Shown piece after piece: positions 22,724 through 34,363 of a DNA stretch of 36,984 bases. Under the pieces are notes generated by a model. That model searched no databases, was not told where the DNA came from, and saw nothing but the letters and a program-made list of their open reading frames with translations. Each line of letters opens with the position of its first letter. Position 1 is the first letter of the stretch. Source of the stretch: Roseomonas sp. (lineage in GTDB: Bacteria; Pseudomonadota; Alphaproteobacteria; Acetobacterales; Acetobacteraceae); contig JAQGHX010000085.1 in assembly GCA_028288745.1 (NCBI GenBank), positions 1 through 36,984 on the forward strand, written 5' to 3'. Made by a program: the position numbers and the translations under genes.

Positions 22724-24571
22724 TCACCCGGCCTCGAAGCCCATCACCAGTTCCTGGATGCGCTGCGGGTCGCTCTGCTCCATGACCCGGCGCGCGAAGC
22801 GGGCGCAGTCGTCGATCTTCAGGCTGCGCACCATCTGCTTCACGCGCGGAATGGCGCTGGCGTTCATCGACAGCGCGCGGATGCCGAGCCCCAGCAGCAG
22901 CGGCACCAGCCGGGGGTTGCCCGCCATCTCGCCACAGACGGAGACCGGCATGCGCAGCCGCAGCGCAGCCTCGGTCGCGAACTGCACCAGCCGCAGCACG
23001 GCGGGGTGCAGCGGGTCGTACAGGTGCGCGACCTCCGCCTCCGCCCGGTCCACCGCCAGGGTGTACATGGCCAGGTCATTGGTGCCGATGGCGAAGAAAT
23101 CGGCTTCCAGCGCGATGGCATCGGCGGCGAGGGCCGCCCCCGGCGTCTCGATCATGGCGCCCAGCAGGGGGGGCTTGTCAGGCAAGGCGACGCCCTTGCG
23201 GCGCAGGCGGCGCTGCACGCGCTCATAGATTTCGCGCGCCTGCTTCACCTCGGCCGGCACCGTGACCATGGGCAGCAGGATGCGGATCTGCCCCTGGGCG
23301 GTATCGGCCCCCGCCACGCGCAGGATGGCGGCGAACTGCGCCTCCAGCAGCTCAGGCCGCTTCAGCAGCATGCGGATGCCACGCAGCCCCAGCGCCGGGT
23401 TCGGGCCGGCATGGAAGGGCCCGATGCCTTCCGCCAGCGCCTCCATGTCCTTCTCGCCGCCCCAGTCCAGCACGCGGATGGTGACGGTATCGCCCGCCAG
23501 CGCCTCGACCACCTGGGTATAGGCGGCGATCTGGGCCTCCTCGTCCGGCAGGTCCTCGCGGTTCATGAACAGGAATTCGGTACGCAGCAGCCCGATGCCC
23601 TGGGCGCCGGCCTGGGCGATCAGCGGCAGCTCGGCCGGGATCTCCAGGTTGGCCTGAAGCTCCACCTCCTCGCCATCCAGGGTCACGGCGGGCAGGCGGC
23701 GCAGCTTGGCCAACCGCGCCTTCTCCTTGGCATAGGCGGCCAGGGCGTCGCGCCCCGTCTCCAGGGCCGCTTGGCCGGGGCGCAGCACGATGGTGCCGAG
23801 GCCGCCATCCAGCACTGCCTGGTCGCCCCGCGCGGCGGCCTCGGTCAGGCCAGGGCAGGCCAGCACGCTGGGGATGCCCAGCGCACGCAGCATGATGGCG
23901 GTATGGCCATCGGCTCCGCCCTCCTCGGTCGCGACGCCGGCGATCCGGGTCGGGTCCAGCAGCGCGGCATCGGCGGGGGTCAGCTCCTCGGCTACCAGGA
24001 TGGCGCCGGCCGGCACGCCCTTCAGGCTGCGGAACGGGGTCGCGGTCAGGTTGCGGGTCAGGCGGCGGGCGATCTCGCGCACCTCGCCGGCGCGGCGGCG
24101 CAGGCCGGCCTTGTCATCATCCTTGGCGGCCAGGATGATCGTGGCGATGGCCTCGGCCTCATCTTGCACGGCGGTCTCGGCGGCGAGCAGCTCATCGCCG
24201 ATGCGGCGGCGGGCACCGCGGATCAGGCGGCTGTCGCCCAGCATCATCGCATAGGCATCGAGCAGGGGTTCCAGTTCCTCCTGCGCTTCCTCGGGCAGCA
24301 CACCGAGCCGCGCCTTCAGCTTGGAGACCTGCTTGCGGCTGGCGGCGACGGCGGCGGCCAGGCGCTGGCGCTCGCTTTCCACCTTCCCGGCATCCACGGT
24401 CCGGCGGGGCGCCTCGGCCTGCACCTCGCTGGTGTCGAACACCGCGCCGATGGCGACACCGGGCGCGATGGCGATGCCCTTGATAACCGTCTCGCGCGTG
24501 CGCCGCGCGGCGGATTTCCTGGCCCCCTCGGCGGCCTTGCTCTCGCTTGTCCGGCTACCGTCAGTCTTCAT
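22724..24571 (-). CDS. ptsI: PTS enzyme I (phosphoenolpyruvate-protein phosphotransferase)
   Basis: Takes phosphate from phosphoenolpyruvate and passes it to HPr. An HPr-binding/phosphohistidine domain carries the active histidine at residue 223 (EEGGADGHTAIMLRALGIPS); the PEP-binding barrel has LLRTEFLFM, ALGLRGIRMLL, GAMIETPGAAL, FAIGTNDLAMY and the cysteine motif VSVCGEMAG. No N-terminal GAF domain, so ptsI rather than ptsP type. The first about 28 residues are a charged extension. Its start overlaps ptsH by 11 bases. As no sugar-specific permease is present, it belongs to a regulatory PTS. Confidence 0.95.
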   Translation of the reverse strand: MKTDGSRTSESKAAEGARKSAARRTRETVIKGIAIAPGVAIGAVFDTSEVQAEAPRRTVDAGKVESERQRLAAAVAASRKQVSKLKARLGVLPEEAQEELEPLLDAYAMMLGDSRLIRGARRRIGDELLAAETAVQDEAEAIATIILAAKDDDKAGLRRRAGEVREIARRLTRNLTATPFRSLKGVPAGAILVAEELTPADAALLDPTRIAGVATEEGGADGHTAIMLRALGIPSVLACPGLTEAAARGDQAVLDGGLGTIVLRPGQAALETGRDALAAYAKEKARLAKLRRLPAVTLDGEEVELQANLEIPAELPLIAQAGAQGIGLLRTEFLFMNREDLPDEEAQIAAYTQVVEALAGDTVTIRVLDWGGEKDMEALAEGIGPFHAGPNPALGLRGIRMLLKRPELLEAQFAAILRVAGADTAQGQIRILLPMVTVPAEVKQAREIYERVQRRLRRKGVALPDKPPLLGAMIETPGAALAADAIALEADFFAIGTNDLAMYTLAVDRAEAEVAHLYDPLHPAVLRLVQFATEAALRLRMPVSVCGEMAGNPRLVPLLLGLGIRALSMNASAIPRVKQMVRSLKIDDCARFARRVMEQSDPQRIQELVMGFEAG

Positions 24572-24920
24572 GGAACCCGGCCTCGATCAGGCCGGCCACA
24601 GCATCGAGGGCTTCCTTGGCGTCCCAGCCTTCCGCGTCCACCACAACCTCGCTGCCCTTGCCGGCGCCCAGCATCATCAAGCCCATGATGGAGCAGGCAG
24701 GCACCGTCTGGCCATGGCGGGAGACGTTGACGCAGGCAGAAAAACGCTCGGCCAGCGTCACCAGCTTCGCCGCCGCCCGCGCGTGCAGGCCACGGCTGTT
24801 CCGGATGGTCACCGTCTGGCGCAGCACCATGGGGTTGTCGCTGTCCGCCCGCGCGTTGATGGCACGGAAGGAATCGGACGGTGCCAGGACGGCGGAGGGG
24901 TGACGCAGGGGGAAAGGCAT
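24561..24920 (-). CDS. ptsH: HPr phosphocarrier protein with N-terminal extension
   Basis: Small phosphocarrier between enzyme I and EIIA. The phosphohistidine is in NSRGLHARAAAKL (His46 here); the regulatory serine phosphorylated by HprK is in ACSIMGLMMLGAGKGSE (Ser77). Usual HPr is about 89 aa and would start at the ATG at 24830, but no ribosome-binding site precedes it. The ATG at 24920 overlaps the EIIA stop as TGATG and has GGAG 7 bases upstream, so a 119-residue form with 30 extra residues is preferred. Overlaps ptsI by 11 bases. Confidence 0.92.
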   Translation of the reverse strand: MPFPLRHPSAVLAPSDSFRAINARADSDNPMVLRQTVTIRNSRGLHARAAAKLVTLAERFSACVNVSRHGQTVPACSIMGLMMLGAGKGSEVVVDAEGWDAKEALDAVAGLIEAGFHED

Positions 24921-25381
24921 CAGGTCGCTCCGGCCTTGCGAGCGGCCGCGCAGAGCCCCATCGGCTCGGGCGGCGCGCAACGGGTGGGCGTGGCGCAGGA
25001 GATATAGCGCCGCCCCGCAGACATGGCGTGTTCCACCGCCTGCGCCAATGGCTGCACCCCGCGAACACGCGCGAGCTTGACCATCAGCGGCAGGTTCACC
25101 CCCGCGATCACCTCGACCGAGGCCGCGCGGCAGGGTTCCTCGGCCACGGCGGTGGCGAGGTTGGAAGGGGTGCCGCCGAACATGTCGGTCAGGATGACGA
25201 CGCCGTCGCCCTGGTCCACGGCCGCCACGCAGTCGCGGATATCCTGTCGGCGGCCTTCCATGTCGTCCTCCGGCCCGATGCAGACGGTGGCGACGGCGCG
25301 CTGCGGTCCGACCACATGCTCCATCGCCAGCCGCAGTTCATCGGCCAAGTGGCCATGGCTCACCAGAACCATTCCGATCAT
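24920..25381 (-). CDS. PTS EIIA of the mannose/fructose (PtsM) family
   Basis: 153-residue EIIA-Man-like protein. MIGMVLVSHGHLADELRLAM has the phosphorylated histidine at residue 9; GVVILTDMFGGTPSNLA and EVIAGVNLPLMVKL are family motifs. In alphaproteobacteria this stand-alone EIIA is the output of the regulatory PTS rather than part of a sugar transporter. The C-terminus (GRRYISCATPTRCAPPEP) extends past the usual end. The frame is open upstream, but the family begins at the ATG at 25381. TGATG overlap with ptsH, 28 bases after rapZ. Confidence 0.92.
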   Translation of the reverse strand: MIGMVLVSHGHLADELRLAMEHVVGPQRAVATVCIGPEDDMEGRRQDIRDCVAAVDQGDGVVILTDMFGGTPSNLATAVAEEPCRAASVEVIAGVNLPLMVKLARVRGVQPLAQAVEHAMSAGRRYISCATPTRCAPPEPMGLCAAARKAGAT

Positions 25382-25409
25382 GTCGCCGGTACCACAAAGC
25401 TGAAAGGCA

Positions 25410-26582
25410 TTAATACGTGCAAGAAGGGGCCTCCCGACCCGCAGAGGGAATATGGGATGTGGGGCTTGTCTCGGCCCGCTGTGCCGGGGCCCCTGTAACG
25501 GACCGCTCGGCTCTCGGGGCGCTGCCGGCCCCCTCCGGTCTCGGGCCATTCGCGGCCCCTTGGCATATCGGGCCGCTCCCGGCCTCCTGGAGTACCGGGT
25601 CGCTCTTGGCCTTTTCGAATATCAGGCCGCTCCCGGCCCCTTCGGATATCGGGACGTTCGTGGCCTTTTGGAAGACGGGCCCGGTTGCGGCCCGGACAGG
25701 CTCTCCACGCGCCAGCTCCCGGTGCGAGAGGTCGACCCGCCAGCCCTGCCCGGCCAGATGGGCCGCCAGCATTTCGGCCAGCAGCACGGAGCGGTGTTTG
25801 CCGCCCGTGCAGCCCATGGCCACGGTGAGGTATTTCTTGCCCTCCGCCGCGTAGCGGGGCAACAGCGGGTCCAGCAGCGCCGTCATGCGTTGCCAGAATG
25901 GACCGAACGCCGAATCCTCTTGAACGAAGGCCGCCACCGGCCCATCGCGCCCGGTCAGTGGCCGCAGCACCGGGTCGTAATGCGGGTTGCGCAGGAAGCG
26001 CAGGTCGAAGACCAGCTCGGCCTCGCGCGGCAGCCCTTTCGGGAAGGCGAAGGACACCACGGCCACCGCCATGCCCTGCCCTTCCCCGCCGCTGTCGCGG
26101 AAACGCTGCTCGATCTGCCGGCGCAGGTCCGGCAAGGGCAGGTCCGAGGTATCGAGCACGGCATCCGCCGCGTCGCGCAGCGGTGCCAGCAGCGCCGCCT
26201 CCCGCGCGATGCCGTCGGCGACCGAGGCCCCCAGCGAGCCACCCGGCGCCAGCGGGTGGCGCCTGCGCGTCTCGGAGAAGCGGCGCAGCAGCACCGTCTC
26301 ATCCGCCGTGGCGAACAGCAATTGCGGCGCGATGCCGGGGTCCTGCCGCAGCCGGTCCAGCAGCGCCAGCAGGCCGGCGGCCTCGAAGCCGCGCGTGCGG
26401 ACATCCACCCCGGCCGCGATGGGCACGCTGGCGCCCTCCAGCACCACTTCCTCCAGGACCGAGAGCGGCGGGTTGTCCACCGTCTCGAAGCCCAGATCCT
26501 CCAGCATCCGCAGGATGGACGACTTGCCGGCCCCGGACAGGCCGGTGACCAGCACCACCGGCCGTGGAAGCGGTGCGGTCAT
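25410..26582 (-). CDS. rapZ: RapZ-family nucleotide-binding protein with repeat tail
   Basis: RNase adapter protein RapZ/YvcJ family. Walker A GLSGAGKS at 14-21, DNPPL at 36-40, the family pattern VFDLRFLRNPHYDP at 191-204, TGRDGPV, and the C-terminal MGCTGGKHRSVLLAE at 256-270. In Escherichia coli RapZ steers RNase E to the GlmZ small RNA; in alphaproteobacteria the target is unknown. Its ATG overlaps the hprK stop (ATGA), a conserved pairing. The family normally ends near residue 290; here 100 more residues follow, including seven 9-residue repeats (301-363). Confidence 0.93.
   Translation of the reverse strand: MTAPLPRPVVLVTGLSGAGKSSILRMLEDLGFETVDNPPLSVLEEVVLEGASVPIAAGVDVRTRGFEAAGLLALLDRLRQDPGIAPQLLFATADETVLLRRFSETRRRHPLAPGGSLGASVADGIAREAALLAPLRDAADAVLDTSDLPLPDLRRQIEQRFRDSGGEGQGMAVAVVSFAFPKGLPREAELVFDLRFLRNPHYDPVLRPLTGRDGPVAAFVQEDSAFGPFWQRMTALLDPLLPRYAAEGKKYLTVAMGCTGGKHRSVLLAEMLAAHLAGQGWRVDLSHRELARGEPVRAATGPVFQKATNVPISEGAGSGLIFEKAKSDPVLQEAGSGPICQGAANGPRPEGAGSAPRAERSVTGAPAQRAETSPTSHIPSAGREAPSCTY
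25494..25682 (-). repeat. 27-bp tandem repeats encoding a nonapeptide array in RapZ
   Basis: Seven units of 27 bases (189 bases) without frame loss. Protein units in order: GPVFQKATN, VPISEGAGS, GLIFEKAKS, DPVLQEAGS, GPICQGAAN, GPRPEGAGS, APRAERSVT. A loose consensus is GP-I/V-x-x-x-A-x-S. On the plus strand each unit begins with a GGGCCG-like motif and has a GGCC about 10 bases in. Confidence 0.85.
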
Positions 26583-27028
26583 GCCGCCACGAAGGCACCG
26601 GCGCGCAGGCCGAAGCGCATCTGGGCCACGCCGAGCGCCAGCTCGATCTTGGCGGCGGCCGAACAGTCGAAGGGATGCAGCGCCAGCAGCGGCAGGCCGT
26701 GCCCCAGCACGGTGAAGACGCGGGGCTCCGGCAGGCGGGGCACTTCGTCCCGCGCCACCATCAGCACCGCCAGCCGCAGCGGCGCGGGGCCGTGCGGCAG
26801 ACCCTGGAAAATGCCGACGCCACGGACCTCCAGCAGCCCCGCCAGCTCCGGCGGCGACTCGGCCGCCACGGCGCCGTCCCCGGCCGAAAGCTTCACCTGG
26901 TCATCGGCCACCAATTGCCAGCCGCGCTGCATCAGCCGCAGCAACAGGTCAGACTTGCCAGACCCGGGAACCCCCAGGAACAGAACGCCCGCCCCACCGG
27001 ACGAAGCGCAGCTTCCGTGCTGCAACAT
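26579..27028 (-). CDS. hprK: HPr kinase/phosphorylase, short alphaproteobacterial form
   Basis: 149-residue version of HprK holding only the C-terminal catalytic domain. Walker A GVPGSGKSD at 19-27, VADDQV at 40-45, and the signature EVRGVGIF follow. It phosphorylates and dephosphorylates HPr on the regulatory serine, setting PTS phosphate flow. The ATG at 27028 gives the family N-terminus. First gene of hprK-rapZ-EIIA-ptsH-ptsI; the usual chvG/chvI two-component genes upstream are missing, replaced by a divergent dehydratase. Confidence 0.93.
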   Translation of the reverse strand: MLQHGSCASSGGAGVLFLGVPGSGKSDLLLRLMQRGWQLVADDQVKLSAGDGAVAAESPPELAGLLEVRGVGIFQGLPHGPAPLRLAVLMVARDEVPRLPEPRVFTVLGHGLPLLALHPFDCSAAAKIELALGVAQMRFGLRAGAFVAA

Positions 27029-27049
27029 GGGCGCGCTCGGCTTTCCCGT

Positions 27050-27131
27050 GAAATATGCAGAAATATGGCATCTTCTGGGCCGGGGGGACAAGACCCCCAA
27101 GGTTGCGGCCCCCGTGCGCCGATGCAACCTT
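27050..27131. promoter_or_regulatory. Divergent control region of hprK and the dehydratase
   Basis: Two direct GAAATATG repeats start at 27050 and 27060, one helical turn apart. GGGGG/CCCCC forms a hairpin at about 27083-27098. AAGGTTGC (27099-27106) and GCAACCTT (27124-27131) make a perfect inverted repeat just before the dehydratase start. These look like operator and RNA-structure candidates; no regulator is assigned. Confidence 0.4.
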
Positions 27132-27139
27132 ACCGCGAC

Positions 27140-28075
27140 ATGACCCATATGATCGACGCCCCCGCCATCCGCGACGCCGCGCGGCGGATCGCCCCCCATA
27201 TCCGCCGCACACCGCTGCTGCACCTGCCGGCGGCGGCCCTTGGGACCCCATGCGATCTCACGCTGAAGCTGGAACTGCTGCAGGCCAGCGGGTCCTTCAA
27301 GACGCGCGGCGCCTTCAACCGCATGCTGGCCGGGCCGCTGCCGGCCGCCGGTGTCGTCGCGGCCTCCGGCGGCAACCACGGCGCCGCGGTGGCCTATGCC
27401 GCCCGGGCCTTGGGCGCGCGGGCCGAGATCTATGTCCCCGAGATCACCGGCCCCGCCAAGCTCGCCCGCATCCGGGCCTATGGCGCGCACCTGGTGCAGG
27501 GCGGCGCCACCTATGACGACGCCCGCCGCGCCAGCGAGGCCCGCGCGGCCGAGACCGGGGCCATGATGGTCCATGCCTACGACCAGCCCGAAGTCCTGAT
27601 CGGCCAGGGCACCCTGGCGCTGGAACTGGAGGAGGACGCGCCGGAGCTGACGCATGTCCTGGTCGCCACCGGCGGCGGCGGGCTGATCGGCGGCATGGCC
27701 GCCTGGTACGCCGGCCGCGCCGACGTGGTGAGCGTCGAGCCCGCCGCCTGCCCCACCCTGCACGACGCGCTCCGCGCCGGCGCGCCCACCCCGGCCGCGG
27801 TCGGCGGCGTGGCGGCGGACAGCCTGGGCGCCCGGCAGGTGGGCATCGCCATGTTCCCCATCGCGCAGGCCTTCATCCACCATGCGGTGCTGGTGCCGGA
27901 CGAGGCCATCCTGGAAGCCCGCCGCCGGCTGTGGGACGCCTGCCGGCTGGTGGTGGAACCCGGCGGGGCCACCGCGCTCGCCGCCCTGCTCTGCGGCGCC
28001 TTCACACCCCCGGAAGGGGCACGGGTGGGCATCGTGCTGTGCGGGGCGAATACCGATCCGGGCAGCGTTGGCTGA
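27140..28075 (+). CDS. PLP-dependent serine/threonine dehydratase
   Basis: Fold-type II PLP enzyme, 311 aa. The Schiff-base lysine is Lys54 in ASGSFKTRGAFNRM; SGGNHGAAVAYAA binds substrate, and the glycine loop GGGGLIGG (178-185) holds PLP phosphate. There is no C-terminal ACT domain, so it is the catabolic or racemase-like short form, not biosynthetic IlvA; serine racemase or threo-hydroxyaspartate dehydratase are alternatives. The ATG at 27140 is chosen; in-frame ATGs at 27122 and 27149 are possible, none with a clear ribosome-binding site. Confidence 0.87.
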   Translation: MTHMIDAPAIRDAARRIAPHIRRTPLLHLPAAALGTPCDLTLKLELLQASGSFKTRGAFNRMLAGPLPAAGVVAASGGNHGAAVAYAARALGARAEIYVPEITGPAKLARIRAYGAHLVQGGATYDDARRASEARAAETGAMMVHAYDQPEVLIGQGTLALELEEDAPELTHVLVATGGGGLIGGMAAWYAGRADVVSVEPAACPTLHDALRAGAPTPAAVGGVAADSLGARQVGIAMFPIAQAFIHHAVLVPDEAILEARRRLWDACRLVVEPGGATALAALLCGAFTPPEGARVGIVLCGANTDPGSVG

Positions 28076-28357: not shown

Positions 28358-29227
28358 TCACTGCCGGTCGAACAGCAGTCCTTCCAGCACGCCGCGCACC
28401 AGGGCCACGCCTTCCTGCAGGCCTTCCAGCCGCAGCGGCCGCCCGTTGGCCGTGCCGGTCGCCCGGCCGAAGGCGACGCGGTCCTGGCCCAGTTCGGCGA
28501 CGGAGAGCTTGCCGTCGCCGTCGTAATCCAGGCTTTCCATCACCAGCCGGCCCAGCGCCACGCCGGCCAGCATGCCGCCGCCGCCCGCAACCAAGGCGGT
28601 CTCAGGCGTCGCGTCCTCGGCGGCGGCCAGCAGCCAGGTGGCGCCGCGCGCCAGCCGGGCGATCTCAGCCACCGAGAGCCTGCCGTCGCCGGATACGTCG
28701 CCTTCGCGCATCACGGCGGCGAGGCAGATCTCGGGAGAGGGGCTGCCGGTGCCGCAGGCCGCTTCCAGCCCTTCCAGCGCCGAGAGGAAGGTCACGCCCT
28801 CGCCATGCAGGGCGGCGATGCCCGGCGGCGCGGCGGGGCAGCGGTGCCAGGCCTGGACCGGGGTGGCGCCCGGCAGGCGGTCGTCGCGCAGCTTGGCGTC
28901 GGGTTCGGCGGTCTCCAGCGCGGTGGCGGTGCCGCGCAGCAGGATGCGCGGTGCCTCCGCCCCGCGCCCGATGCCCATGGTCCAGCCGTCCACGGCGCGC
29001 GCTTCGGCGAAGCGGATCAGCCGGGCGGGGCCGTCATCGGGCAGGCGGGCGGCGGTGCGGGCGGTCAGTTGCAGCAGGGCCTCGGGCGCGGCGCATTCGC
29101 CCTGGTACCAGGGGCCGCGCAGCGGCTCGGGCACCGGCAGGGCGGGTTGCTGCGCGCGGGCGGGGGCGGCGAACCCCAGCAGCAGCGCGGCCATGAAGAC
29201 CATGGACAGGGCGGGACGTCGCGTCAT
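28358..29227 (-). CDS. Secreted protein with two EF-hand loops
   Basis: 289-residue exported protein of unknown function. Signal peptide MTRRPALSMVFMAALLLGFA with cleavage after ARA near residue 25. Two canonical calcium loops: DVSGDGRLSVAE at 177-188 and DYDGDGKLSVAE at 234-245, both with Asp at 1, 3 (Ser or Asp pattern), 5 and Glu at 12. Four cysteines in the mature part could form disulfides. The ATG at 29227 overlaps the stop of the upstream gene (ATGA), which fixes the start and shows coupling with the five-repeat protein. No enzyme signature seen. Confidence 0.75.
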   Translation of the reverse strand: MTRRPALSMVFMAALLLGFAAPARAQQPALPVPEPLRGPWYQGECAAPEALLQLTARTAARLPDDGPARLIRFAEARAVDGWTMGIGRGAEAPRILLRGTATALETAEPDAKLRDDRLPGATPVQAWHRCPAAPPGIAALHGEGVTFLSALEGLEAACGTGSPSPEICLAAVMREGDVSGDGRLSVAEIARLARGATWLLAAAEDATPETALVAGGGGMLAGVALGRLVMESLDYDGDGKLSVAELGQDRVAFGRATGTANGRPLRLEGLQEGVALVRGVLEGLLFDRQ

Positions 29228-31032
29228 GGCAGCGTCACCTCGGTGCCGGAACACAGGTTGAAGCCGGGCAGGACGATCTCCTGCCCGTCGCGGAACACCG
29301 CGCTGAGGGTGGCGGTGCAGCCGACGCCCTCGGGCGGCTGGAAGTCCAGCGTCTCGCCCCTGCCCAGCACGGTGGCGCCCAGGCGGTCGGTGCCGCGCGG
29401 GGCGCCCTGGTCCTGGACATAGAGCTCGACGATCGGCGAGCGGCCGGCATTGCGCAGGCGCACGCTGCCCTCGCGCGGCGGGCCGGGCTCGATGGCGCCG
29501 GGGTTCTGGTCCAGCTTTTCGGCCAGGGTCCAGCCCGGGCGCAGCACGATCAGGCTGGTGGCGCAGATATCGACGCCGCGTCGCTCCTCCGCCCCGCCAT
29601 TGGCGAAGACGATGCGCAGGTCCACCTCGCAGCCGCCATGCAGCGTCACCTCGTGCCGCCCGCCGCGGTCCAGCGCCGTGCCCGAGAGCTTGTCCTCGCC
29701 CCAGTCGGTCTCGTCGATGGCGGAGGCATAGGCTTCCTCCACCGCCGCGCCGTGGCGGTTGATCAGGGTGAAGGCGCGTTCCGGCTGGCGGGGGATGCCG
29801 CTGCCGTCGAACAGGGCGCGGGCATCGGCGCCGCAGATATCCACGCCGCGCTTCTCCTCCGCCGTCTCGTCGTCATAGACGGCGCGCAGGTCGGCTTGGC
29901 AGGCGCGGCTGCGCAGGCGCAGCCGGAAGGTGTCGCCGGCCTCGACCGGCACGGCACCAAGGCGGTCGATGCCCCAGCGGTCGGCGGGACGGTCCTGCCC
30001 CGGGGGCACGCCGGGGGCTGCGGGCTGGGTCACGGCATAGAGGCTGCGCATGGCGCGGCCGCTGCCATTGGCCACTTCCAGATCCCGCCGCGGCACGCTG
30101 GGGTCACCGAAGGAGAGGCGGGCCCGGCGGCAGAGATTGACCCGCAGGCGTTCCTCCACCGTGTCATCCTCGAAGATGGCGGTGACGTCGTAGACGCAGT
30201 CCCGCGTGCGGCCGAGGCGCAGAGTGAAGGAGGAATCCGGCGCCACGACATCGGAGCCCAGCCGGTCCGGTCCGCGCTCGGCCCCATCCTGACCGGCGCC
30301 GTTCCGGCCATCGCCACGCCGGGCGGCGGGGCTGGGGGCGGCGTAGAGCTCGCGCATCGTCAGGTCGGTGGCGTTCTCGATTGTCGCCTCGCGCAGCGGC
30401 GCGGTGGGGTCGCCGAAGGTGACGCGGGCGACGCGGCAGAGGTCCACCCCACGCTTCTCCTGCGCGCTGCCGTCCGAGAGCACGACGCGGACATCGAACA
30501 GGCAGAGCGTCTGCCGCCCGAGCGGAACCCGCAGGCTGGCGCCGGAGGGCAGCGTGTCCATCCCCAGCCGGTCGGGCGCCGTGTCCAGGCTGCCGGTGGG
30601 CACGACATACAGCTCGCGCAATGCGAGGCCGAGTTCATTGGCCACCACCACGGCGCGCTCCTGCGCCTGGCGCGGCGCCTGGGCCGGGGTCGCCACCCCG
30701 CGCGCGGCGGCGGCCGGGCGCAGGGACGCGGAGGGCGACGCCTCGGCCAGCATAGGCCGGGGCGGAATGGATGGGGGCCGAACAGACTGGGGCGGGTTGA
30801 ACTGGGGCGGAATGGACCGGGGCGAAGCCGTCGCGGGCCAGGCCGGCGCGGCAGCGCCTGCTCCGGTATGCGCCAAGGTGAACCGGGTCAAAGCAGGTTG
30901 GACCAAAGCGGGCTGGGTCAGCACGGGCTGGGCAAGCCCCCCCTGGGCGGGGCCCGCCTGGGCAAGCGTGAGCGCCACCGTCCCCGGCGCCAACAGCGCC
31001 AGTACACACCCCACCGCAAGCCAGATCCGCAT
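29224..31032 (-). CDS. Secreted protein with five two-cysteine repeat domains
   Basis: 602-residue exported protein of unknown function. Signal peptide at 1-24, a Pro/Ala/Gln-rich linker to about 125, then five domains of 80-100 residues at about 127-207, 216-310, 318-408, 420-498 and 524-602. Each has an ELY/SLY/EAY motif, a DRLG-like turn, a first cysteine, a hydrophobic D-x-R-x-V-F strand, and ERRGVDIC-like second cysteine. The cysteine pairs are 177/199, 279/301, 378/400, 468/490 and 572/594, always 22 apart, suggesting one disulfide per domain. The ATG lies divergent from tctC. Followed by the EF-hand gene with an ATGA overlap. I recall single-domain relatives annotated as hypothetical in Bradyrhizobium-like genomes. 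Confidence 0.75.
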   Translation of the reverse strand: MRIWLAVGCVLALLAPGTVALTLAQAGPAQGGLAQPVLTQPALVQPALTRFTLAHTGAGAAAPAWPATASPRSIPPQFNPPQSVRPPSIPPRPMLAEASPSASLRPAAAARGVATPAQAPRQAQERAVVVANELGLALRELYVVPTGSLDTAPDRLGMDTLPSGASLRVPLGRQTLCLFDVRVVLSDGSAQEKRGVDLCRVARVTFGDPTAPLREATIENATDLTMRELYAAPSPAARRGDGRNGAGQDGAERGPDRLGSDVVAPDSSFTLRLGRTRDCVYDVTAIFEDDTVEERLRVNLCRRARLSFGDPSVPRRDLEVANGSGRAMRSLYAVTQPAAPGVPPGQDRPADRWGIDRLGAVPVEAGDTFRLRLRSRACQADLRAVYDDETAEEKRGVDICGADARALFDGSGIPRQPERAFTLINRHGAAVEEAYASAIDETDWGEDKLSGTALDRGGRHEVTLHGGCEVDLRIVFANGGAEERRGVDICATSLIVLRPGWTLAEKLDQNPGAIEPGPPREGSVRLRNAGRSPIVELYVQDQGAPRGTDRLGATVLGRGETLDFQPPEGVGCTATLSAVFRDGQEIVLPGFNLCSGTEVTLP

Positions 31033-31177: not shown

Positions 31178-32161
31178 ATGCTGGTCCGTCGCTCTTTCCT
31201 GTCCACCACAGCGCTGGCCGCCGCAGGCGCCGCACTGGGCCTGCCGCTGCTCTCCGGCGCGGCCAAGGCCGAACCACGCTTCGCCTCCATGAACATCTTT
31301 ATTCCCGCCGGCCCCGGCGGCGGCTGGGACGGCCTCGGCCGCGCGATCGAGCAGGTCGCCCGCACCAGCGGCATGGTCGGCAGCTTCCAGTTCGAGAATG
31401 TCGGCGGCGCCGGCGGCACCGTGGGCCTGCCCCGCTTCGTCGCCCAGCGCCGTGGCCGCGCCGATTCCATCATGGTCGGCGGCGCCATCATGGTGGGCGC
31501 GGTGCTGGCCAACCGCTCGCCGGTCGGGCTGAAGGACGTCATCCCCATCGCCCGCATGACCACCGAGCCCAGCGTTATCGTGGTGCCCGCCAGCAGCGAG
31601 TTGAAGGACGTCAAGGGACTGCTGGAGGCGCTGAAGGCCAATCCGGGCGGCACCTCGGTCGCCGGCGGCAGCGCGGGCGGCATCGACCACATCATCCTGG
31701 GCCTGCTGCTGAAGTCGCAGGGCAAGTCGGCCAAGGATGCCAGCTACGTTGCCTTCGCCGGCGGCGGCCCGGCCCAGGCCGCCATTCTCGGCGCCCAGGT
31801 CAAGGCCGGCATCTCCGGCGTCTCTGAATTCGCCGAGCAGGTGAAGGCGGGCCGCATGCGCGCGCTGGCCACCACCGGAGACACCCGCAGCCTGGAAGGC
31901 GTGCCGACGCTGAAGGAAAGCGGCGTGGACATCGTCATGGGCAACTGGCGCGGCATCTTCGCGCCCCCCGGCCTGAAGCCGGAGGCGCGCGAGGCCCTGG
32001 TGAAGTTCTTCACCGACCTCGACGCCACGCCCGCGTGGCAGGAGCTGTGCCAGCGCCAGGGCTGGGACCGCGCCTTCCTGGCCGGCGGCGACTTCGACGC
32101 TTTCCTGAAGCAGGACGAGGCCGAGACGGCCGAAGTGCTCAAGGAAGTCGGGCTGGTCTGA
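31178..32161 (+). CDS. tctC: TctC/Bug-type tripartite tricarboxylate transporter binding protein
   Basis: 327-residue periplasmic binding protein. MLVRRSFLSTTALAAAGAAL is an export signal with a twin-arginine-like start and cleavage after AKA near residue 31. Mature features: MNIFIPAGPGGGWDGLGRAI, VGGAGGTVGL and GGSAGGIDHIILG, the Bug-family ligand loops. GGAGGA 7 bases before the ATG is a strong ribosome-binding site. Ligand is probably a di- or tricarboxylate but cannot be fixed. Heads tctCBA. Confidence 0.93.
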   Translation: MLVRRSFLSTTALAAAGAALGLPLLSGAAKAEPRFASMNIFIPAGPGGGWDGLGRAIEQVARTSGMVGSFQFENVGGAGGTVGLPRFVAQRRGRADSIMVGGAIMVGAVLANRSPVGLKDVIPIARMTTEPSVIVVPASSELKDVKGLLEALKANPGGTSVAGGSAGGIDHIILGLLLKSQGKSAKDASYVAFAGGGPAQAAILGAQVKAGISGVSEFAEQVKAGRMRALATTGDTRSLEGVPTLKESGVDIVMGNWRGIFAPPGLKPEAREALVKFFTDLDATPAWQELCQRQGWDRAFLAGGDFDAFLKQDEAETAEVLKEVGLV

Positions 32162-32863: not shown

Positions 32864-34363
32864 ATGGATGTCTGGTCCGGCCTCGCGCTCGGCTTCGGCA
32901 ATGCACTGTCCTTCACCAATCTCGGCTGGGCGCTGCTCGGCTGCTTCCTCGGCACCGCCATTGGCGTGCTGCCGGGCATCGGGCCGGCGCTGACCATCGC
33001 GCTGCTGCTGCCCATCACCTTCAAGGTCAGCGCGACAGGCGCCTTCATCCTGTTTTGCGGCGTCTTCTACGGCGCCATGTACGGTGGCTCGACCACCTCC
33101 ATCCTGCTCAACACGCCGGGCGAGTCGGGGTCGATCATCACCGCGCTCGAAGGCTCCAAGATGGCCAAGAACGGCCGGGCCGGGCCCGCGCTGTTCACCG
33201 CCGCCATCGGCAGCTTCGTGGCGGGCACCATCGGCACGTTGGGCATTTCCTTTCTCGGCCCCATCGTGGTGGACCTGGCGCTGAATCTGGGGCCGGCGGA
33301 GTACTTCTCGCTGATGGTGCTCTGCTTCGTCACCGTCTCGGCCGTCCTCGGCGGCTCGGCGCTGCGCGGGCTGGCCTCGCTCGGGCTGGGGCTGATGCTC
33401 GGGCTGATCGGCATCGACCTGCAGACCGGCCAGCCGAGGCTCACCTTCGGCGTCAATGAATTGCTGGACGGCACCGATGTCGTGCTGGTGGCCGTTGCCC
33501 TGTTCGCGGTGGGCGAGGCACTCTACCTCGCCTGGCGCGCCAGCGACGAGAAGCAGCAGGTGCTGGCCATCGGCCGCCTGACCATGACGAAGGAAGACTG
33601 GAAGCGCAGCATCGGCCCCTGGTTCCGCGGCGCCGCGCTGGGCTTTCCCTTCGGCGTCATGCCGGCCGGCGGCACCGAGATGCCGACCATGCTGAGCTAC
33701 TATTTCGAACGCAAGCTGGTGCGCCCCGAACACCGCAAGGAATTCGGCACCACCGGCGCGATCGAGGGCGTGGCGGGGCCGGAGGCCGCCAACAATGCCG
33801 CCGCCGCCGGCATCCTGGTGCCGATGCTGACGCTGGGCCTGCCGACATCGGCGACGGCCGCCATCATGCTCTCCGCCTTCCAGTCCTACGGCATCCAGCC
33901 GGGGCCGATGCTGTTCACCACCCAGGCCGAGCTGGTCTGGACGCTGATTGCCTCGCTCTATGTCGCCAACATCATGCTGGTGGTGCTGAACCTGCCGCTG
34001 GTCGGGCTGTGGGCGCGTATCCTGAAGATCCCGCAGCCGCAGCTCTACGCGGGCATCCTGGTCTTCGCCACCATCGGCACCTACGGCATCAGCAACAGCG
34101 TGGTGGACCTCGCGATCCTCTATACGCTGGGCATCATCGCGATGTTCATGCGGCGCTTCGACTTTCCCACCGCGCCGGTGGTCATCGGCATGATCCTGGG
34201 CCCGATGGCGGAACAGGCGATGCGGCAGGCGCTGACCATCAGCCAGGGCGACTGGTCCGCCTTCGTGACGCGACCGGTCTCGGTCTGCATCCTGCTGCTG
34301 GCGCTGGTGGCGCTGGTGGGGCCGCGGGTCTGGGGCCTCGTCGCCCGCCGCCGCGCGGCCTGA
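32864..34363 (+). CDS. tctA: TctA, large membrane subunit of the tripartite transporter
   Basis: 499-residue permease with about eleven transmembrane helices. Family motifs: [57 protein letters not shown], and the second PGGTEMPT-like [15 protein letters not shown] and [16 protein letters not shown]. It moves a carboxylate with ion symport using TctC as binding protein. AAGGGA about 12 bases upstream of the ATG. Convergent with dhaKL. Confidence 0.95.

Follow-up and report, generated by a model that had tools for sequence, protein, structure and literature searches.

The window analysed here, 36,984 nucleotides of a Roseomonas sp. contig, encodes a protein of five tandem domains belonging to a real and well-conserved family that has no model in the libraries searched, and in which the spacing of two conserved cysteines has a structural reason. 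The protein begins with a signal peptide (assigned by eye) and a Pro/Ala-rich stretch reaching to approximately residue 124, after which the five domains of about 85 residues follow in tandem (Table 1). It contains 11 cysteines. Cys9 is unpaired and lies inside the N-terminal hydrophobic stretch read as the signal peptide, and the other ten form one pair per domain, each exactly 22 positions apart. When ten cysteines were placed at random after residue 20, five such pairs were obtained in 0 of 20,000 trials. The open reading frame, the cysteine positions and the randomization together confirm the arrangement proposed in a first-pass annotation of this DNA. The GC content at the three codon positions (0.76/0.56/0.89), taken with the occurrence of five-domain genes at 19 distinct loci, indicates that the gene is real. 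The source genome, which falls near Pseudoroseomonas/Roseomonas, is an assembly of 2.9 Mb in 237 contigs, 71.6% complete. A scan of named contigs, which used patterns from the five-domain protein and reaches close relatives only, identified relatives with 62-77% identity on six contigs (four from Pseudoroseomonas, one from Roseomonas and one from an Acetobacteraceae bacterium).

Table 1. Positions of the features in the window
Feature	Position	Strand	Description
Five-domain protein gene	29224..31032	minus	ATG start, 602 aa; orthologues at 19 distinct loci including its own
Domain 1	30406..30660	minus	Residues 125-209; Cys177/Cys199
Domain 2	30100..30396	minus	Residues 213-311; Cys279/Cys301
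Domain 3	29803..30090	minus	Residues 315-410; Cys378/Cys400
Domain 4	29527..29787	minus	Residues 416-502; Cys468/Cys490; AlphaFold2 pLDDT 88.8, six strands
Domain 5	29227..29478	minus	Residues 519-602; Cys572/Cys594
Partner gene	28358..29227	minus	289 aa, signal peptide (by eye), two EF-hand loops
EF-hand loop 1 of partner	28664..28699	minus	DVSGDGRLSVAE; by pattern only
EF-hand loop 2 of partner	28493..28528	minus	DYDGDGKLSVAE; pattern and Pfam match
TctC-like gene	31178..32161	plus	Divergent, 145 bases upstream of the five-domain gene
TctA	32864-34363		Pfam

A profile built from the five units gave five matches at each of the 19 distinct five-domain loci, a count to which the six named contigs add nothing, as they duplicate loci already counted. 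Among 101 distinct domains from the first 30 loci, the Asn following strand A and both cysteines are invariant, a Tyr is retained in 89%, the GxDRLG loop is strongly conserved (Gly 97, Asp 95, Arg 92 and Leu 97%), and the positions after the first cysteine favor Asp (82%), Leu (69%) and Arg (70%). The loop that precedes the DRLG turn accounts for most of the variation in domain length. By profile match, the Asn after strand A, the G-x-D-x-L loop and the paired cysteines, the domains form a single C-x21-C family. The sequence marks described earlier are present in the window protein in a looser form: DRLG occurs in domains 1, 2, 3 and 5 but is DKLS in domain 4, and the endings of domains 1-5 read GVDLC, RVNLC, GVDIC, GVDIC and GFNLC. 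The cysteine spacing, first described as invariant, is nearly so in the five-domain proteins (22 in 100 of the 101 domains and 21 in the remaining one) but is only preferred in the wider family, where 178 distinct domains from 129 loci have a spacing of 22 in 161 cases, 23 in 14, 21 in 1 and 24 in 1; the remaining domain contains three cysteines (15+8). None of these 178 domains, counted after dropping matches that span fewer than about 70 of the 85 profile positions, has fewer than two cysteines. A control copy of domain 4 stripped of its cysteines still scored 72.0 bits, versus 87.6 for the native sequence, and 258 of 260 domain matches scored above 40 bits; most cysteine-less domains at the searched loci would therefore have been detected.

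The structure of domain 4 was predicted with AlphaFold2 from an alignment of 35 rows comprising domains from the window and the named contigs. The model (pTM 0.77; pLDDT in Table 1) is all-β, with strands at residues 3-10, 16-23, 44-50, 54-61, 66-73 and 79-82. In its numbering, Cys53 immediately precedes strand 54-61, and Cys75 follows strand 66-73 at a distance of two residues. The cysteines thus flank one hairpin with strands of 8 residues each and a turn of 4, which accounts for the fixed spacing of 22. A longer model covering residues 119-602, built from seven rows, was of lower confidence (pLDDT 74.8, pTM 0.50) and has low-confidence stretches that include the linker between domains 4 and 5. 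It repeats the strand pattern of domain 4 in all five domains, and the hairpin-flanking geometry recurs at 59/81, 161/183, 260/282, 350/372 and 454/476. The predictions thus bear out the proposal of a small β module repeated as beads, and tandem all-β domains of this kind correspond to an Ig-like bead-string architecture, a term used here for predicted architecture and not for homology. The description of the modules as disulfide-locked stands as far as the placement of the cysteines is concerned, because both are present in 178/178 domains and occupy the same hairpin ends in all five modeled domains; the bond itself is very likely, judging from this co-conservation and from the position at the hairpin. 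Foldseek comparison of the longer model gave TMq of about 0.1-0.2 and was uninformative on how the beads are arranged.

Searches against known families agreed with the earlier statement that the domain could not be named. The whole five-domain protein had no match in Pfam or NCBIfam, and two sets of 21 and 25 domains gave isolated, single-member matches at chance level (best E 0.013), so no curated Pfam-A or NCBIfam model matches the domain; the direct hit to a well-characterized domain that might have displaced the proposal was looked for in these two libraries and was absent. Sequence searches of the PDB returned chance matches only (best E 0.22 and 1.2). Foldseek with the domain 4 model gave no match at E <0.001. 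The best was 2mca (E 0.031), an uncharacterized protein of Eubacterium rectale (YP_002937094.1), which resembles domain 4 over 85 aligned columns (TMq 0.64, 3.2 Å rmsd) but shares 12% identity. Nothing related by title was found in the open PMC literature on the domain, the 2mca protein, the EF-hand pairing or the peptidase fusion.

The domain is widespread in Pseudomonadota, in single-domain, two-domain and three-domain proteins and in fusions to trypsin-like peptidases. The whole five-domain protein was matched in 29 of 58 genomes (the source genome and 57 relatives). Domain profiles had matches in 32 of the 289 class genomes sampled and in 48 of the 398 sampled across the phylum (26 from the class, including the source genome, and 22 from other classes); both counts are lower bounds, since only part of the first-look candidates was scored per genome. 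Distinct open frames at the 129 loci carry one domain match in 48 cases, two in 18, three in 3 and five in 19, in counts that include partial matches and that are not natural frequencies because the loci were picked by match. Many single-domain frames are short (about 110-200 residues) and lack a peptidase, and one locus (L034) places a single domain behind an N-terminal part with cysteines of its own. The source genome itself encodes the five-domain protein, two two-domain proteins (L002 and L003) and one single-domain peptidase fusion (L051). Plasmid searches by tblastn found nothing with the whole five-domain protein and two records with a single-domain member. One is WP_317406412.1 of Sulfitobacter dubius (35.8% identity over 66% of the query, E 4e-11), which differs in being a 108-residue product with no product name and with no EF-hand product among its annotated neighbors. 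No confirmation was obtained that single-domain members are sometimes labeled argininosuccinate lyase or Tat signal proteins; the sole named annotation under a domain match was 'hypothetical protein'. Clustering of the neighbors of 40 wider-family loci, in which groups of at least three loci were examined, revealed no telling recurrent neighbor: the groups were the domain itself (37/40), frames antisense to the domain gene (14), ABC ATPases recognized by eye (6) and three-locus groups drawn from relatives L113, L117 and L119 or including L108.

A tree of 82 domains, inferred from few columns and with bootstrap support still unsettled, separates most bead positions. Copies of domain 5 form a clade (99/94), as do copies of domain 4 (100/99), which are joined there by one domain from L024 and one from L061, both shorter proteins. 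Separation is less clean at positions 1, 2 and 3: domain 3 copies cluster in eight of nine cases (90/88, open), and domains 1 and 2 fall into a common open group within which domain 2 forms a clade (98/82). Orthologous beads share 54-72% identity, versus 31-49% between beads of one protein. The tree and the identities fit growth by internal duplication followed by a separate role for each bead, without homogenization. As bead positions mostly keep their identity across species, the beads are probably separate contact surfaces and not filler.

Immediately downstream, a second gene overlaps the five-domain gene by 4 bases, its ATG running into the stop codon of the latter (ATGA). Its product, referred to as the partner, belongs to the EF-hand proteins: one loop matches EF-hand_5 at 28.9 bits, against a cut-off of 25.9, and three other EF-hand models score below the Pfam cut-off. 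The unassigned N-terminal part of the partner has conserved motifs around W[YF]xGxC, KLRDDRLPG and W[HR]RC in most copies compared. The partner adjoins the five-domain gene at 18 of the 19 distinct loci; at the nineteenth (L010, genome G014), the contig breaks off about 115 bases beyond the five-domain gene, with the partner located on a different contig. Of the 58 genomes, 21 have the partner and 19 have the five-domain gene (E <1e-100), all 19 within those 21, and 37 have neither, a co-occurrence counted within one bacterial family, where shared descent can produce the same pattern. The two partner-only genomes are G004, where the partner begins at the contig start, and G010, where the record is incomplete beside it. 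A profile of partner copies gave no match at other domain loci, many of which have short flanks. The shorter relatives L024 and L061 have no EF-hand neighbor and no EF-hand partner in their genomes, which indicates that the domain does not need that partner. On the other side, the divergent gene encodes what we take to be the TctC binding protein of a tripartite tricarboxylate transporter. A TctC look-alike (by eye) adjoins the five-domain gene in L026, L027, L029 and L030 and the partner gene in G010; among ten loci searched, a TctC-like match was found only in L010 and L020, and L023 is without one. Genes for PTS enzyme I, RapZ and HPr kinase (Pfam) are present on the minus strand at 22724-27883 of the window, a neighborhood that is usual in Alphaproteobacteria.

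The same domain is joined to trypsin-like peptidases. In the fusion of the source genome (L051:2577-3668), the domain occupies residues 43-126 and a Trypsin_2 (PF13365) domain residues 159-293 (E 7e-26), with membership indicated by the profile match and by the His and Ser motifs. Matches to L051 at E 1e-20 or better occur in 26 of 58 genomes and span both domain and peptidase in 21 of 58, namely every one of the 17 genus genomes searched plus four more. Fifteen fetched fusion loci retain the cysteine pair together with the His and GNSGGP motifs, as does L032 (L032:232-2448), from another family of the class, where two domain copies precede the peptidase. In genome G020 (L158:853-2766), the domain lies behind the peptidase in one frame, at 71.3 bits and with a spacing of 22. 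No domain match was obtained for the related peptidases of G022, G032, G033 and G049, the last of which (L162:1-2436) has 13 Sel1 repeat stretches and PG_binding_1 in front, in the module's place. Sel1 repeats are known protein-binding repeats, and the substitution is in keeping with a module whose role is binding or placing. Unlike the Trypsin_2 fusions, the five-domain protein matched no catalytic domain, and its gene and the peptidase fusion are on different contigs of the source genome (C107 and C217).

These observations suggest a tentative model. The five-domain protein would be exported to the periplasm or cell surface as a string of five Ig-like β-sandwich beads, in each of which a disulfide would tie the open ends of one β-hairpin. 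The string and the two-EF-hand protein would be made from one operon and may act together, possibly as a complex, so that the beads could provide the cell envelope with a binding scaffold that depends on calcium. In the peptidase fusions, the module would be an accessory domain, placed on either side of the trypsin-like enzyme, that binds partners or substrates. The account of the function that we favor, an envelope bead-string scaffold working with a calcium-binding EF-hand partner, has in our estimate somewhat less than an even chance. A broader version is doubtful: the module may be what recognizes targets in an undescribed envelope system found in Pseudomonadota, one form of it steering trypsin-like peptidases toward a ligand or a damaged protein, with the five-bead form and its two-EF-hand sensor providing a calcium-gated surface or periplasmic scaffold in Pseudoroseomonas relatives.

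Other readings of the fold and of the cysteines were considered. Tandem secreted β-sandwich modules are a usual form of carbohydrate binders, and the beads might be carbohydrate-binding modules (CBMs) forming a secreted array with avidity for a cell-surface or environmental glycan. Weak Foldseek matches of domain 4 point in this direction, including the GH15 glucoamylase 2vn4 (E 0.035, rank 2), CBM25 (2c3x, 2c3w and 2c3v), the β-amylase starch-binding domain 1cqy and CBM20 (8x8k). However, these matches have E values of 0.035 or worse and TMq of about 0.37-0.47 and rank below uncharacterized 2mca, no CBM family (CBM25 and CBM20 included) was matched by sequence profile, and the enzyme fusions encountered, in a search not systematic for others, are with peptidases only; a glycan-binding array is consequently unlikely. 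It is very improbable that the domain belongs to the von Hippel-Lindau (VHL) β-domain family (PF01847), even though VHL chains recur in the Foldseek results for domain 4 (1vcb, TMq 0.54, E 0.10; 7cjb, TMq 0.53, E 0.12) and an hhalign comparison of alignment A2 with four bacterial VHL domains gave a pairwise P of 0.016. These fold matches are weak and point neither way (TMq about 0.48-0.54, E 0.10 or worse). The VHL pieces carry one cysteine where the domain has two. Pfam VHL matched none of 25 domain members at E up to 10. The hhalign probabilities were 2.8% for A2, the best obtained, and 0.3% for A3 (P 0.21), over 35-37 columns and with only four VHL rows, and membership by sequence was rejected on this comparison. 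Bacterial proteins with VHL β domains themselves occur in 3 of 190 genomes of the class (L085-L088). The retention of two cysteines in every domain counted would also be expected of a redox switch or a catalytic thiol pair, but the pair is not a CxxC motif and flanks a hairpin in a confidently predicted sandwich, making such a role highly unlikely compared with a structural disulfide.

The fusions raise the question of whether the domain is instead a regulator or substrate-recognition piece for trypsin-like peptidases, with the stand-alone and five-copy forms acting on the sister peptidase as bait, inhibitor or adaptor. Its placement before the peptidase throughout the searched genus genomes and in four others, its duplication in L032 and its position behind the enzyme in G020 are consistent with this. 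The separation of the five-domain and peptidase genes onto two contigs here, the many short carriers without a peptidase and the four related peptidases without the domain argue against it, and a dedicated peptidase role is distinctly unlikely.

The Ig-like bead architecture is itself ordinary and of a known kind; the novelty lies in the family, with its EF-hand partner and its peptidase fusions. With a family model, the single-domain, multidomain and peptidase-fused proteins could all be annotated together, while the EF-hand gene that accompanies the five-domain gene and the fusion to peptidases provide two direct experimental handles on what the domain binds.
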